A DNA stretch of 64,000 nt from Vibrio furnissii CIP 102972 (GTDB taxonomy: Bacteria > Pseudomonadota > Gammaproteobacteria > Enterobacterales > Vibrionaceae): contig NZ_ACZP01000013.1 of NCBI RefSeq assembly GCF_000176175.1, positions 620,001 to 684,000 of the forward strand, given 5' to 3'. Numbering within the stretch: the first letter of the stretch is position 1; every line of letters begins with the position of its first letter. The translations under genes and the position numbers were made by a program. Positions 7,429 through 13,349 of this stretch are shown in pieces. The notes beneath the pieces were generated by a model. That model had not been told where the DNA came from and did no database searches. It was given only the letters and a program-made list of their open reading frames with translations.

Positions 7429-8616
7429 ATGCGATTGATAACGACTTTTACTCAATCTTCTGATCTCATCAATGCTATTCATCAACTGAGAGAGTCCCTA
7501 ATATTAAAGGGGCTTTCTAGTGTTGTTCTCTATTATACTGACGAATATCCTATAGAGACATTATTCACGCTATTTAAGACAGCATTTCCTAATATTCCTT
7601 TTATTGGGTGTTCATCGTGTAAAGGCGTGATGACTGAAAAAGGTTATCATGCCGGCCCAGTCATCGCCGCCATGGGGATTTACGATTCAAACCAGAGCGC
7701 GTACGGAACCGGATTGATTGCATTGGATGAAGGCCAAGACTTTCGAAAATCCACTCGCAAAGCGATTCAACAAGCACTGCGTTCTGCAGGTAGAATTGGC
7801 GAAGTTCCAAGTCTGATTGTGCTTCATGCAACCCCCGGTCATGAAGAGCTGTTTATCGATGAAATTGACGATACGTTCGGGACTCAAATCCCCATCATCG
7901 GGGGCAGTGCAGCAGACAATTATATTCAAAAGCAGTGGTCAAGCATGACGGAGCAAGGCTGGATTCAACGTGGCATTGCGATTGAGCTCTTTTTCCCATC
8001 TAAGCCGCTGACCACTGGATTTAGCGCAGGCTATTCACCCACCGAATTTGTTGGCACAGTCACGAAAGCATCCGGACGTTTTATCCATGAAATCGATGGC
8101 GAGCCGGCTAAACAAATCTACAAAGAGTGGATCAGTGATCACTCCAGCGTCCAAATATCAGAACATTATCTCTTTCACCACGTCACTCGCTTTCCACTTG
8201 GCCGCGTTGCTGGGCACATTCATCAGCAGCCGTATTACAAACTATCTCATCCAGTGCGCATGACACGCAGCGGATCGATGGAGATGTTTACCGCTGCTGT
8301 TGAAGGCGAAACCGTCACGTTGATGACCGGATCCAGAGAGCAACTGATCAATCGAGCATCTCGAGTTGTAAAAGAGGCCAATACCCAGAATTATCATGAG
8401 TCACAACTACTTGGCTCAATCATCATCTATTGCGCCGGTTCAATGTTGCGCCTTGGCGAAGATATTCTCGAAGTGCAACGCCAATTAAAATCCCAAATGA
8501 ACAATCAACCGTTTATTTGTCCCTTTACCTTCGGTGAACAAGGGCGTTTCATCGGTGGCGAGAACGCACACGGGAACTTGATGATCTCGTCAGTCCTATT
8601 CTATGAGTCTGAGTAA
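7429..8616 (+). CDS. nosP: FIST-domain sensor protein, NosP-like
   Basis: 395 residues from the ATG encoding MRLITTFTQSSDL. FIST_N features include PFIGCSSCKGVMTEKGYH and PIIGGSAADNY; the FIST_C half ends in CPFTFGEQGRFI, typical of the family. In V. cholerae the equivalent protein next to VpsS has been reported as a heme-binding nitric-oxide sensor (NosP) that controls the kinase; heme binding here is inferred from family and context. The gene overlaps the kinase gene by 14 bp. A TTG ten codons upstream is an alternative start; neither start has a strong Shine-Dalgarno sequence. Confidence 0.85.
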   Translation: MRLITTFTQSSDLINAIHQLRESLILKGLSSVVLYYTDEYPIETLFTLFKTAFPNIPFIGCSSCKGVMTEKGYHAGPVIAAMGIYDSNQSAYGTGLIALDEGQDFRKSTRKAIQQALRSAGRIGEVPSLIVLHATPGHEELFIDEIDDTFGTQIPIIGGSAADNYIQKQWSSMTEQGWIQRGIAIELFFPSKPLTTGFSAGYSPTEFVGTVTKASGRFIHEIDGEPAKQIYKEWISDHSSVQISEHYLFHHVTRFPLGRVAGHIHQQPYYKLSHPVRMTRSGSMEMFTAAVEGETVTLMTGSREQLINRASRVVKEANTQNYHESQLLGSIIIYCAGSMLRLGEDILEVQRQLKSQMNNQPFICPFTFGEQGRFIGGENAHGNLMISSVLFYESE

Positions 8617-10357
8617 CCATCTGATGGAACAAGAAAAGATAGAGCAGCTTAATGAAGCGTTATTGGAACTGGAACGCAGCAAAGAACGAGAACAGCGTCT
8701 GGCCGAAGAAAACCGGGTCATTTTGGCGGCGTTATCCGCGCTTAGTCACGCCGACAACAAATACCAAATTTTTGAAGAACTGAAAAAAGTCCTCAGTCGC
8801 TACATTCGGTTCGACGACTTCATCGTGATTTCAAAAGATAAAGAAAGCAGTATCTTTTCGACGTATCTAGCATCTAACTTAGCGTTTCAAGGCAAAGAGT
8901 GGTTCAACGGCGACAAGTTTCAACGTGTGTTGGATGGCGAATGCATCATTCTTTTCGAGCCCAGCAAACTCGATGAGTTTCAAAACTTAAATCACTTTCT
9001 AAAAGATCAGATCAACTCAGCACTCGTGACGGGGATTCGAGCGCAAACCAGTGACTCTGTTTTGCTATTACTGGGCACACGAAAAGGGCAGTTTAGCCTC
9101 GAAACTAAATCAACGCTGTCACGCTTTCGCCCATTACTTGAACGCGCGATCAACGACATTGAACACAAAGAAGCGCTGCAAAAACTGGTCGATTTAAAAA
9201 CTCGAGAACTGAAAGTTGCTCAGCAACTGGCGGAGCAGGCGAACCAATCCAAGTCACAATTCCTTGCCATGATGAGTCACGAACTACGTACGCCACTTAA
9301 TGCCGTGTTAGGGCTGATTGATTTACTGCGTGATGATTCAGATGCTTATCAGCAAGACATGCTAGAACAGATGGAAAATTCGGCTGAGTTACTTTTGGTC
9401 ATCATCAACGATATCCTCGACCTCAGTCGCATCGAGTCAGGTCATTTTGAGTTACAACGTCACTGGATTAGTTTAAGCCGTAAGCTCCAACATGCACTCG
9501 AATACCATAGCCAAGTAGCGCAAGCCAAAGACATTACCTTCAACGTCAAAGCCTCCATTTGTGAGCAATTTGAATATTGGGTCGACTCAGTTCGTCTCAC
9601 TCAAATCCTATTTAACATCATCGGCAATGCAATCAAATTTACCCATCACGGTTTTGTTGATGTATCACTGGTGACCGCACGGGATCGCCTAGAGATTGAA
9701 GTCAAAGATTCCGGCATTGGGATCGACAACGAGCGAATCGAACACCTGTTTTCACCCTTCATTCAAGCCGATACCTCGATTACGCGGAACTACGGCGGAA
9801 CCGGGTTAGGGTTAGCCATCACCAAACATCTGGTTGAACTGATGGGGGGTAGCATTACCGTGAGTAGCAAACTAGGCGAGGGAAGTCTGTTTACGATTTC
9901 GATTCCTTTGCAATCGCGGAGTTCAGAAACGTCTCATCTCGATGAACTTCCGCTCTCTCATACCGCATCACATCGTGCGCTTGATGACACCAAACACATC
10001 CTCGTTGTCGAGGATACCAAGACAAACCAAATGGTCATCCAGCTCTTACTTAATCGAATGGGTTACAACGTAACACTTGCTAATAACGGACAACACGCCA
10101 TCGAACTGGTTGAAAAAGATAGAACTTTTGACCTGATCTTCATGGATATTTCGATGCCAATCATGGATGGGATTCAAGCAACTCGCATTTTGCGTTCTCG
10201 AAAACTCGCCACACCGATCATTGCACTGACTGCACACGCCATGAATAGCGATCATGAAAACTGTTTGGCCGCAGGGATGAATGACATTGTGTTGAAGCCC
10301 ATCCGAAGCAAAGAGCTACAACGAATCTCAGATCGCTACCTGAATCACCAGCGATAG
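8603..10357 (+). CDS. vpsS: Hybrid sensor histidine kinase, VpsS-like
   Basis: 584 residues: an N-terminal coiled coil (about 5-45), a GAF-like region (about 50-190), a second coiled coil, HisKA with MSHELRTPLN (His near 226), HATPase with VKDSGIGID and GGTGLGLAI, and a C-terminal receiver domain with FMDISMPIMDG (Asp near 515). There is no membrane segment, so it is a soluble hybrid kinase. V. cholerae VpsS (VC1445) feeds phosphate to LuxU in the quorum-sensing/biofilm pathway, and its FIST partner inhibits it when NO is bound. Its start lies inside the FIST gene, in keeping with a two-protein receptor. Confidence 0.85.
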   Translation: MSLSNHLMEQEKIEQLNEALLELERSKEREQRLAEENRVILAALSALSHADNKYQIFEELKKVLSRYIRFDDFIVISKDKESSIFSTYLASNLAFQGKEWFNGDKFQRVLDGECIILFEPSKLDEFQNLNHFLKDQINSALVTGIRAQTSDSVLLLLGTRKGQFSLETKSTLSRFRPLLERAINDIEHKEALQKLVDLKTRELKVAQQLAEQANQSKSQFLAMMSHELRTPLNAVLGLIDLLRDDSDAYQQDMLEQMENSAELLLVIINDILDLSRIESGHFELQRHWISLSRKLQHALEYHSQVAQAKDITFNVKASICEQFEYWVDSVRLTQILFNIIGNAIKFTHHGFVDVSLVTARDRLEIEVKDSGIGIDNERIEHLFSPFIQADTSITRNYGGTGLGLAITKHLVELMGGSITVSSKLGEGSLFTISIPLQSRSSETSHLDELPLSHTASHRALDDTKHILVVEDTKTNQMVIQLLLNRMGYNVTLANNGQHAIELVEKDRTFDLIFMDISMPIMDGIQATRILRSRKLATPIIALTAHAMNSDHENCLAAGMNDIVLKPIRSKELQRISDRYLNHQR

Positions 10358-10463: not shown

Positions 10464-11708
10464 ATGAACACCACACTTTATTCGCCTAAACACGACCGAT
10501 TCACTCAGCTTTCTTTTAAGTTTAAAAGCAAACTTCTGTTACTCGGACCAGCATTCATTGCCGCAATTGGTTACATTGACCCGGGTAACTTCGCTACCAA
10601 CATCGAAGCCGGTTCAGCCTTTGGCTATCAACTTCTTTGGGTAGTACTGTGGGCAAACCTCATGGCGATGTTAATTCAATATCTATCCGCGAAACTTGGC
10701 ATCGTGACCGGCAAAAACCTAGCGGAACATCTAAGAGAACGGTTGCCAAAATGGGCGATAGTGCCTTACTGGATCCAAGCAGAACTCATCGCCATTGCGA
10801 CTGACCTAGCTGAATTTATTGGGGCTGCGGTCGGTTTTCAATTGTTGTTTGGTATTCGGTTGATTGATGGCGCCGCCATTACAGCCGTCGCGACCGTGGC
10901 CATATTGATGCTCAATAAGAAAGGGCAAAAACCGTTGGAAATGACGATTGGTGGGCTGCTACTGTTTGTCGCCATTGTCTACGTGGCAGAATTGCTGTTT
11001 GCACATCCATCGGGCTCAGACCTCACAACCGGCATCTTGGTCCCAACACTAAATAGTAGTCATCAAATCTACTTAGCAGCCGGTATCTTAGGGGCAACGG
11101 TTATGCCGCACGTCATCTACCTGCATTCCGCATTGTTTAAAAACACCTACAATCAAACCGTAGAAAAACGTCTGCGTTCAACCAAATTCGATGTATCCAT
11201 CGCGATGATTATTGCCGGTTTCGTGAACATCGCGATTGTTGCAATGGCGGCGGCAGCATTTCACGCCAGCGGAAATCAACATGTGGCAGAAATCGAAACT
11301 GCATACAAAACGCTGGAACCGCTGGTTGGTAAGGCCGCATCCATCTTGTTTGGTATCTCACTGATAGCATCAGGTTTGTCATCCACGGTTGTTGGCACAA
11401 TGGCAGGCCAAGTCGTTATGCAAGGGTTTGTCCGTATGAGCATTCCCATGTGGTTGAGAAGAACCATCACCATGGCGCCGTCGTTTGTGGTGATTGGGCT
11501 AGGCATTAACACCACACAAATATTGGTGATGAGCCAAGTCGCACTTAGCTTTGGTATCGCATTGGCGATCATTCCGCTGATTCTGTTTACCGCGAACTCA
11601 AGCATCATGGGGAAATACACCAACAGCAAAGCAGTCACATCGACTGGCGGTGTCATCATTGGTTTGGTGTTGTTATTGAATGCGTATCTGCTTACGACAC
11701 TGATCTAA
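10464..11708 (+). CDS. mntH: Nramp-family Mn2+/Fe2+ transporter MntH
   Basis: 414 residues with about eleven membrane helices. The helix-1 metal-binding motif appears as [16 protein letters not shown] (the DPGN signature), and helix 6 carries [11 protein letters not shown] with the metal-coordinating Met region. It imports manganese and iron by proton symport. It is the last gene before dif and is monocistronic, with a candidate Fur box upstream. In V. cholerae N16961, as I recall, the interval between the vpsS homologue and the terminus holds the RTX and CTX elements instead. Confidence 0.93.
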
Positions 11709-11725
11709 ACAAAAGCAAGCCATCT

Positions 11726-11774
11726 TAATTACCATATTGATTACGCGTGGGAACGTGAATCAATATGGTAATTA
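11726..11774. terminator. Long perfect stem-loop 3' of mntH
   Basis: A perfect 17-bp stem (TAATTACCATATTGATT and its complement) around a 15-nt loop, beginning 18 bp after the mntH stop codon. The stem is AT-rich and lacks a U-tract, so it is not a standard intrinsic terminator. It may protect or end the mntH transcript, or be a DNA-level palindrome near dif. Confidence 0.5.
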
Positions 11775-11871
11775 TATACTTTATGGTAAATCGTTTATGT
11801 TCAATGCCTTAAGTGGTTCTCAGCAAGAAAGAGGGCCAAATCAACATATCTCATGGTGCTCAATCGACATC

Positions 11872-11899
11872 ATTTAACATAATATACATAATGCGCACT
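11872..11899 (-). other. dif: dif: chromosome dimer resolution site (XerC/XerD)
   Basis: Read on the minus strand: XerC arm AGTGCGCATTA, spacer TGTATA, XerD arm TTATGTTAAAT. The XerD arm and spacer equal E. coli dif; the XerC arm differs from it at two positions (1 and 10). It also resembles V. cholerae dif1 as I recall it. XerCD resolve chromosome dimers here under FtsK control, and filamentous phages such as CTXphi integrate at such sites. The site lies in a gene-free gap, with matP and matS sites around it, which marks the replication terminus. Confidence 0.95.
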
Positions 11900-11910
11900 A
11901 AGAACAATGG

Positions 11911-11921
11911 ATTTAACATCT
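11911..11921. repeat. Second XerD-like half site
   Basis: ATTTAACATCT repeats 9 of 11 bases of the XerD arm of dif (ATTTAACATAA on the plus strand), in the same orientation, 39 bp to the right. It has no XerC arm partner. It could be a trace of Xer-dependent integration and excision, or chance. Confidence 0.35.
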
Positions 11922-12090
11922 GATAAAACCTGTCGGTTTTCATGACCTAAACCCCTGATACATGAGCCGTATTTCTAGTTAACTGAGTTTTTTTTCGTCG
12001 TTTGACGTTTGTTTTCGCTGAGTCGTCTTCATCGCGCTTTAATGATTCCAGCCTCACACCTTATCAAGATCATCTTGTCACACACATTGG

Positions 12091-12420
12091 TTAGAGTTCC
12101 CGTGCATCAATTTGAATTCTGATGAACCGTTCTGGGATTTGGTATTTGTATTTTTTGCCAACCTTGATGGCCTGTTTGACGCGTTTACAGAGTTGCGCGT
12201 CGCCAAGCGTTGAGACTTGTACGACCTTGGCGTACTGATTGTCGATGTGATTCATGTCGACAAATACATCGCAAAAACCTTTTGCAGACACATTCTGTTT
12301 GCTCAGCACTTTGAGCGTTTTGGCTTTGATGAGCCTTGCGACGTTGTTGATTTCTGTGTCGTCTGCCCATGCGTGCTGTGAACAAAGCCATATTGCGATG
12401 ATGAGTAATTGTGGTTTCAT
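12091..12420 (-). CDS. Periplasmic protein with TolA C-terminal-like domain
   Basis: 109 residues with a signal peptide (cut probably after QHAWA). The mature part has two cysteines (GFCDVFVDMN and DAQLCKRVKQAI) spaced as in the C-terminal domain of TolA, followed by a KYQIPERFIRIQID strand. It has no TolA membrane anchor or long helical domain. The TolA C-terminal domain is a binding target for colicins and for the minor coat protein of filamentous phages. Assignment is from pattern only and the function is unknown. It is monocistronic and the first gene to the right of dif. Confidence 0.6.
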   Translation of the reverse strand: MKPQLLIIAIWLCSQHAWADDTEINNVARLIKAKTLKVLSKQNVSAKGFCDVFVDMNHIDNQYAKVVQVSTLGDAQLCKRVKQAIKVGKKYKYQIPERFIRIQIDAREL

Positions 12421-12544: not shown

Positions 12545-12862
12545 CTAGTGAGTCTTTTTACTTTTATCACCGTTGCCTTTGAAGCCTTGGTGTGGAAATA
12601 CGTTTCGAATGCGCTGTTGTACTTTCTTTGGCACCTGGTTCGAGAACACCAACTTCATATTGTGCCTTTGATGATAAACTTTGAGTTCACCATCAAATGG
12701 CGCATTTTCACCAATCTCAATGACATTATGTTTAAACGACGGCGGAAAATGACCTTTAACCTGTGTAATGACGCCATTTTTAAACTTAACTTTGAGTACA
12801 GGCCTGTCGGCCGCGACCAACCAAAAGATGACGATTGCAGCAATTAAAATCACATACAACAT
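12545..12862 (-). CDS. DUF3634 family protein, membrane-anchored
   Basis: 105 residues: an N-terminal membrane helix (MLYVILIAAIVIFWLVAADR), then a small basic domain containing VKFKNGVITQVKGHFPP and a lysine-rich tail. I recognise it as the DUF3634 type found in Vibrio and related genera; function unknown. It begins 11 bp after the matP stop, so the two are probably cotranscribed, and a strong terminator follows. Confidence 0.7.
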   Translation of the reverse strand: MLYVILIAAIVIFWLVAADRPVLKVKFKNGVITQVKGHFPPSFKHNVIEIGENAPFDGELKVYHQRHNMKLVFSNQVPKKVQQRIRNVFPHQGFKGNGDKSKKTH

Positions 12863-12873
12863 CTTGCTAACTC

Positions 12874-13323
12874 CTAATCAGACAGCAATTTACTTAAATC
12901 TTCTTTTAAACTCGAAACCGTGCGGCTCGCTTTCTCGCTCCGTGACGCTTCACTAAGCAGATACTCAATGGCATCGGATAACGTGCATCCCAGTTCGTTT
13001 GCTCGCACAGACAACTTTTCCCATACGCGATAATCTAAATCGATGGATTTTTTACGTGTATGTAACTGCTCTGCATTGAAATGACGCTTCCGTTTGGCAC
13101 GAATGGCTTGTTTGAGCTTGTTGTCCAAATCTGGTGCCATATGCTGTTCGATCCATTCAAGCACCAAGGTTGGCTCATGTTCTAGAGATTTGAGTTCTTG
13201 AACAGCGGCATCTGCCTCACTACGATCGATATGACAAGTGATCGGTTCGCCATCTTTCCATTTTTTGATTAAGTACTGCCACTTCCAACCGCATTCCAGG
13301 TTTTCGAGTTGTTGATATTTCAT
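12874..13323 (-). CDS. matP: Macrodomain Ter protein MatP
   Basis: 149 residues from ATG (MKYQQLENLECGWKWQYLIK), almost the size of E. coli MatP. It has the N-terminal four-helix bundle and a C-terminal ribbon-helix-helix region (KKSIDLDYRVWEKL, then a helix with SDAIEYLL) that binds matS. MatP condenses the Ter region and links it to the division machinery. A TTG three codons upstream is less likely. It is divergent from the ycbZ-type protease gene, and the matP-ycbZ-fabA-rmf order is as in E. coli. A one-mismatch matS lies 27 bp upstream of its start. Confidence 0.95.
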   Translation of the reverse strand: MKYQQLENLECGWKWQYLIKKWKDGEPITCHIDRSEADAAVQELKSLEHEPTLVLEWIEQHMAPDLDNKLKQAIRAKRKRHFNAEQLHTRKKSIDLDYRVWEKLSVRANELGCTLSDAIEYLLSEASRSEKASRTVSSLKEDLSKLLSD

Positions 13324-13349
13324 GTCTGGCAAGCCTATTTAAAATTAGG

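Follow-up and report, generated by a model that had tools for sequence, protein, structure and literature searches.

The region studied here (the window) is a 64,000-nucleotide stretch of Vibrio furnissii CIP 102972, C12:620001-684000, from a contig of 1,355,700 bases in a 4.96-Mb genome of 24 contigs in which the chromosome is not closed. It carries a 28-bp dif site and, 80 bp away on the XerD side of that site, a second dif-like 28-mer in inverted orientation, to which we refer as the companion. The dif site is well studied and, in Vibrio, is also where many filamentous phages land. As a rule it is regarded as a self-sufficient 28-mer, with the FtsK-orienting polar sequences (KOPS) as its partners in cis. 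The elements of the locus are as follows.

11872-11899, minus strand: dif1, with XerC arm 11889-11899, spacer 11883-11888 and XerD arm 11872-11882
11764-11791, plus strand, inverted relative to dif: companion 28-mer, with XerC-like arm 11764-11774, spacer 11775-11780 and XerD-like arm TTATGGTAAAT at 11781-11791
11795-11805, plus strand: second XerD-like arm of the companion, TTATGTTCAAT, with counterpart arms in other families
11726-11774, plus strand: hairpin, its stem formed by 11726-11742 and 11758-11774, the 3' arm overlapping the XerC-like half of the companion
11792-11871, no strand: phased interval of 80 bp from the first XerD-like arm of the companion to dif, containing the second arm

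Across 11872-11899 the minus strand reads AGTGCGCATTATGTATATTATGTTAAAT, which conforms to the dif consensus (XerC arm, 6-bp spacer and XerD arm) with two differences from the dif of E. coli MG1655 (GGTGCGCATAATGTATATTATGTTAAAT, locus L242), used as the reference. The spacer and XerD arm are the same as in E. coli, and both differences, at positions 1 and 10, fall in the XerC arm; the initial annotation of this DNA had likewise noted two differences there. A dif match occurred once in the window and in none of 100 dinucleotide shuffles (0 expected by chance). In the whole genome, a degenerate dif pattern allowing up to 3 mismatches matched twice, with 0 mismatches in the window and with 1 mismatch on contig C11, where the spacer is TGTACG (dif2-like); by this pattern, no second, better dif was present on contig C12. 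The inversion of GC skew that had been proposed as a check was found, with a mean of +0.038 over 200 kb to the left of the site and -0.055 over 200 kb to the right. The KOPS heptamer GGNAGGG also switched strands (plus to minus, 35:1 on the left of dif and 8:28 on the right), as did the octamer GGGNAGGG (12:0 and 1:5). Within the same 400 kb, cumulative skew reached its maximum at C12:609235, 22.6 kb off dif, and the 37 matS-type sites of the genome were densest near both dif sites. Since consensus, uniqueness on the contig, and the skew and KOPS switch all agree, we assign 11872-11899, on sequence grounds, as the probably functional, phage-free dif1 of its chromosome. Named records sharing the 28-mer belong to Vibrio, Photobacterium, Aliivibrio, Enterovibrio, Grimontia and Salinivibrio. 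The gene for XerD lies on contig C5 (385 bits, over the cut-off), and a second full-length relative on C14 (282 bits, under the XerD cut-off) is probably XerC. A tyrosine-recombinase relative was seen at G000:C11:1536779-1537234, ∼1 kb from dif2 of the window genome.

The initial annotation had taken 380 bp of gene-free DNA at this place for the empty interval of an unoccupied attachment site. That reading holds insofar as no element is integrated at dif; it is incomplete, however, because the supposedly empty interval carries a conserved, phased and inverted dif-like companion. The first arm of the companion, TTATGGTAAAT, is a near-match of the XerD arm TTATGTTAAAT and was found inverted, on the XerD side of dif, at most scanned loci. 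Aligned loci shared a layout in which an XerC-like half with an inner ATTA is followed by a spacer (mostly nnTATT), the XerD-like arm and, mostly 3 to 6 nt further on, the second XerD-like arm, with a hairpin of variable sequence upstream. For the window, the predicted RNA fold of 11715-11800 had a free energy of -30.2 kcal/mol (z score, -5.7). Among 63 non-redundant elements, the 3' arm paired with an upstream 12-mer at 10 or more of 12 bases in 60%, versus 11.6% when arms were swapped among elements, and the stems showed compensatory changes at several pairs. The hairpin spanned the XerC-like ATTA in 101 of 141 distinct elements. An Rfam search of 7 loci (window excluded) returned nothing relevant.

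The companion proved to be widespread in the Vibrionaceae (family f1; 329 genomes). Its core, ATTANNTANTTTATGGTAAAT, was present in 266 of the 329 genomes and in 11 of 13 genera, usually as two copies per genome, and the reversed core pattern, used as a control, had 0 matches among the genomes listed. The window genome itself has one copy beside dif1 and one beside dif2. When loci were fetched by the core alone, an inverted dif-like site (at most 6 mismatches) was found in 30 of 30 loci from other genera of the family, at gaps of 69 to 101 bp, and in 35 of 36 new viral contigs, at gaps of 60 to 164 bp. A paired pattern of companion and dif matched 189 genomes at 66 to 96 bp and 127 at 97 to 127 bp (controls, 0); by hand count, the union of both ranges comprised about 269 of the 329 genomes. 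Genome G090, whose dif1 is the same as the V. cholerae dif1 printed in the available passages of PMC2731167 and PMC3089051, has the companion-dif pair on two contigs. In four genomes chosen for look-alike intervals (L253/L254, L255/L256, L257/L258 and L259/L260), the segment from dif to the hairpin was 90 to 98% identical between the two chromosomes over 155 to 220 bp; no flank similarity was reported and the dif spacers differed. Such a pattern suggests that some 170 bp have evolved in concert. In the window genome, similarity between the dif1 and dif2 modules was not found.

A few companions were seen away from dif. At L262, L266 and L268 (genomes G266, G284 and G295), each contig has two copies about 19 to 43 kb apart, one of which has no recognizable dif and was possibly left by a dif-targeting island. 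At L165 (a viral contig) and L269 (G298), the companion 28-mer is just 6 mismatches from dif and lies ∼1.8 kb away from it.

Beyond the Vibrionaceae, an evenly drawn order-level sample of 295 genomes revealed the element in two further families, f2 and f12, which may be represented by Moritella and Shewanella. In f2, TANTTTATGGTAAAT was present in 10 of 11 genomes; at all five fetched loci the core is preceded by a hairpin and adjoins an inverted dif, and at two of them dif itself has TTATGGTAAAT as its XerD arm. In f12, a search pattern that asked for XerD-like arms found one paired with dif, at 62 to 92 bp, in 19 of the 22 genomes. All ten fetched f12 loci have dif and a two-arm companion, the first arm being the canonical XerD arm TTATGTTAAAT in every one. 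Two core matches in family f10 (L244 and L245) have an inverted dif 1,032 and 738 bp away. In genome G482 of f10 (L264 and L273), two companions are separated by 11.7 kb. The first adjoins a dif whose XerC arm is altered, the second has an intact dif at a distance of 738 bp, and together they possibly delimit an integrated element. Of the other core matches fetched outside f1, f2 and f12, L243, L246 and L247 lack a dif and appear to be chance matches; the fetched locus of G525 has no recognizable dif, and a short contig of G590 with a Vibrio-type dif2 is probably a contaminant.

The length of the gap between companion and dif was not evenly distributed. Values clustered at 67 to 69, 78 to 81, 87 to 90, 98 to 102 and 109 to 112 bp, and for 111 intervals that were less than 0.80 similar to each other (drawn from fetched loci including viral contigs; range, 60 to 164 bp) a Rayleigh R of 0.555 was obtained at a best period of 10.65 bp, a strength reached by 0 of 5,000 jittered sets. 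Phasing persisted when the similarity limit was tightened to 0.60 (n = 34; R = 0.597 at 10.5 bp) and among loci with a TGTATA-type dif (n = 62; R = 0.645 at 10.8 bp). The spacing between the upstream stop codon and the companion, analyzed for comparison at 65 loci, was unphased (R = 0.162, p = 0.999), whereas the companion-dif gap in the same 65 loci was phased (R = 0.599). The f12 gaps also gave high R values, both for nine parsed loci (R = 0.868 at 11.40 bp, p = 0.001) and for 19 gaps read from match coordinates, where six values were recalculated from the position of the second arm and that of G433 was 101 (R = 0.848 at 11.20 bp; 0 of 3,000 null sets as strong). The 80-bp gap at dif1 of the window is in phase. 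Overall, phasing is strong at dif1 and weak at chromosome 2.

Because the companion-dif gap is helically phased, we propose a contact between proteins through a DNA loop. The reading that we favor, and hold to be fairly probable, is that of a two-site locus, in which dif1 and the inverted companion 80 bp off would both be bound by Xer proteins and touch each other via the loop. It is based on the occurrence of the companion in three families, usually as two copies per genome in the Vibrionaceae, on its fixed orientation and side, on the similarity of its arms and on the phasing of the gap. Judging from the arms, XerD, and weakly XerC, would most likely bind to the companion. Arm similarity, orientation, side and phasing suggest that XerD, with XerC, would occupy it, and that this complex would meet the one at dif on the same helical face of a short loop. 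Less certainly, the loop may tune the timing of dif recombination, for example by keeping XerCD silent before the arrival of FtsK or, alternatively, by making dif active only within an intact chromosomal terminus. In most Vibrionaceae the companion is directly adjoined by the hairpin, which probably forms in the transcript of the upstream co-oriented gene and may protect the companion against read-through. We see roughly even chances for a broader proposal, according to which the Vibrionaceae and at least two related families would use, in place of a bare 28-bp dif, a resolution module of ∼170 bp with a looped, Xer-bound companion, which would behave as a unit and may have been the chromosomal model for the inverted attP pair acquired by CTX-type phages.

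Several observations weigh against a bound and looped companion. The gap at dif2 of the window genome (94 bp) is out of phase, and fetched loci with other dif spacers, mostly from chromosome 2, gave an R of only 0.33 (n = 26, p = 0.21). A set of 72 chromosome-2-type gaps, hand-picked among the matches listed, reached an R of 0.597 at 10.4 bp, with p = 0.06 and an unchanged phase once one over-represented block was collapsed. The f12 peak lies at 11.2 bp, and when only the distinct values were used (n = 9), the signal was not significant (187 of 3,000 null sets as strong); in general, the null model for phasing handles phylogeny by the similarity filter alone. The XerC-like half is weak, being conserved only at T3 (99%), at G4 (70%) and at an inner ATTA that was built into the search pattern, and the hairpin may account for part of this conservation. 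Moreover, about 60 of the 329 Vibrionaceae genomes have no linked pair at 66 to 127 bp (hand count), named loci without a companion include those of V. superstes, V. breoganii and V. inusitatus, 40 of the 141 distinct elements have no hairpin at that place, and the dif flanks of E. coli MG1655 have no companion. Finally, dif1 and dif2 placed on plasmids were able to recombine with FtsK in E. coli (Val 2008, PMC2533119, whose available passages give no flank length). Should those plasmids have carried only the 28-mer, recombination there does not need the companion; the most economical proposal is a role in control.

Among the alternatives, the one that fares best, although we consider it unlikely, is that some other terminus protein, such as an unknown regulator or nucleoid protein, binds the companion and touches XerCD or FtsK, the likeness to an XerD arm being secondary. 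Phasing points to a contact and is silent on the partner, and the weak XerC-like half and the two direct arms ∼15 bp apart, unlike a standard Xer core, speak for it. Against it stand the use of TTATGGTAAAT as dif's own XerD arm at the two f2 loci and the canonical XerD arm as first arm at the ten fetched f12 loci.

Quite improbable, in our view, is that dif1 is ordinary and the companion is just an intrinsic terminator or the 3' end of whichever gene lies upstream, be it vpsS, mntH or, on chromosome 2, a different one. The window hairpin is strong, an open frame ends toward the element in co-orientation at 93 of 128 loci (4 diverge and 31 do neither), and mismatches in the stems favor wobble pairs on the strand read toward dif (53 G-T versus 12 C-A, related sequences kept), all of which agrees with such an origin. 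However, the conserved part follows the hairpin and resembles an XerD arm, the arms are retained at the ten f12 loci, where no co-oriented frame of 90 codons lies close by, and it is the companion-dif gap that is phased and not the distance from the gene. The window hairpin was not among the matches of a consensus scan for intrinsic terminators (loop of 3 to 8, 5 or more T in 8), and a sigma-70 consensus scan gave no support. Since the f12 arms persist without an upstream frame, the hairpin may serve the transcript of the upstream gene and the arms may serve dif. Very improbable, finally, is that companion and dif are the inherited fossil of an ancient CTX-type prophage with an inverted attP-like remnant: filamentous phages do use the site in relatives, but conserved arms, a covarying hairpin and phasing, kept on both chromosomes and across three families, are not what one would expect of a scar, and the companion spacer has 6 bp, compared to phage central regions of 12 bp (attP1) and 7 or 6 bp (attP2). 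It is phasing and spread that place both the scar and the pure terminator low.

In its 28-bp layout, its skew and KOPS switch and its occurrence once per replicon, the site resembles dif1 and dif2 of V. cholerae and other gammaproteobacterial dif sites, from which it is set apart by the conserved companion found here. Plasmid Xer sites with accessory sequences, such as cer and psi, likewise have cis-acting DNA beside the Xer core. The accessory DNA of plasmid sites comprises ∼200 bp and is bound by accessory proteins (available passages of PMC2533119), whereas the companion is an inverted dif-like sequence on the XerD side of a chromosomal site. The attP1 and attP2 sites of CTX phage, attP(+), also form an inverted pair of dif-like sites, with a distance of about 90 bp (PMC3089051). 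They are phage borne and act as a folded single strand with 12-bp and 7- or 6-bp central regions, as described there; the companion has the spacing of such an inverted pair and a 6-bp spacer, and it is chromosomal, in a genome with no Zot match. In B. subtilis, which belongs to a different phylum, XerD mediates SMC unloading at dif (passages of PMC13342612) and thus likewise acts near the terminus apart from resolution; here, there is one companion per dif at a phased distance.

No description of a chromosomal dif companion was found in the literature searched, subscription papers and supplements being outside its scope. The papers that contain the string TTATGGTAAAT include none on dif by title, the available passages of PMC6549158, PMC2731167, PMC13342612, PMC3025954 and PMC4246890 mention no such element, and the searched terms were absent from PMC4177673. 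According to the passages of Val 2008 (PMC2533119), conserved motifs near Vibrio dif sites were not found (data not shown there); a phased companion would contradict this sole published statement that we found on dif flanks, and it would supply dimer resolution, in a large bacterial group, with a cis component that had been missing. The same source reports that a G17-to-A change raised FtsK-independent recombination. Position 17 of dif is A in the window and G in V. cholerae dif1, and the companion may bear on FtsK control of XerCD in Vibrio.

The genes flanking the locus are listed below.

8603-10357, plus strand: putative VpsS homologue (hybrid histidine kinase by Pfam), a dif1 neighbor at many loci
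10464-11708, plus strand: mntH (Nramp), co-oriented, between the VpsS homologue and dif, stopping just ahead of the hairpin
12091-12420, minus strand: open reading frame ORF109, chromosomal, on the XerC side and near dif in several relatives, with no Pfam family
12545-12862, minus strand: DUF3634 protein, on the XerC side of dif
12874-13332, minus strand: matP (Pfam MatP and MatP_C)

On the XerC side, the order from dif is ORF109, DUF3634, MatP, a Lon-like protease and FabA. The order DUF3634-MatP-LonH, in some cases with ORF109, was repeated near dif at many examined loci, and VpsS stood on the opposite side in many; at some loci this block was displaced from dif by kilobases of other DNA. 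As to matP, it lies ∼1 kb from dif1 in the window, near dif1 at many examined loci and further away in several. The label "TolA-C-like" originally given to the frame at 12091-12420 could not be upheld, as Pfam returned 0 families even at an E value of 10.

The absence of an integrated element at dif was borne out. ORF109 is the first gene past dif, the neighbors are syntenic with those at many other dif1 loci of the group, Zot matches in the genome numbered 0, and 11709-12420 had no match at an E value of 1e-5 among 50,697 phage records. Xer-using phages attach at this site, which is unoccupied in the window and occupied in relatives; the reading as an empty attachment site is right, and ordinary, since filamentous prophages occupying dif are already known (PMC11630473). 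Among viral contigs, 19 had the exact dif 23-mer and 51 the companion core (55 distinct in total). In the fetched viral stretches, the longer part lay on the XerC side of dif in 54 of 55, and 43 of 50 viral records tested had a Zot match. Because these 55 contigs carry dif or the core, most with Zot, we conclude that filamentous phages use the site in relatives. At L257 (contig C1 of genome G018), two sites in the same orientation (1391-1418 and 12756-12783) lie 11.4 kb apart. One is an intact dif and the other keeps the XerC arm and spacer with a changed XerD arm, an arrangement that resembles the ends of a TLC-type element.
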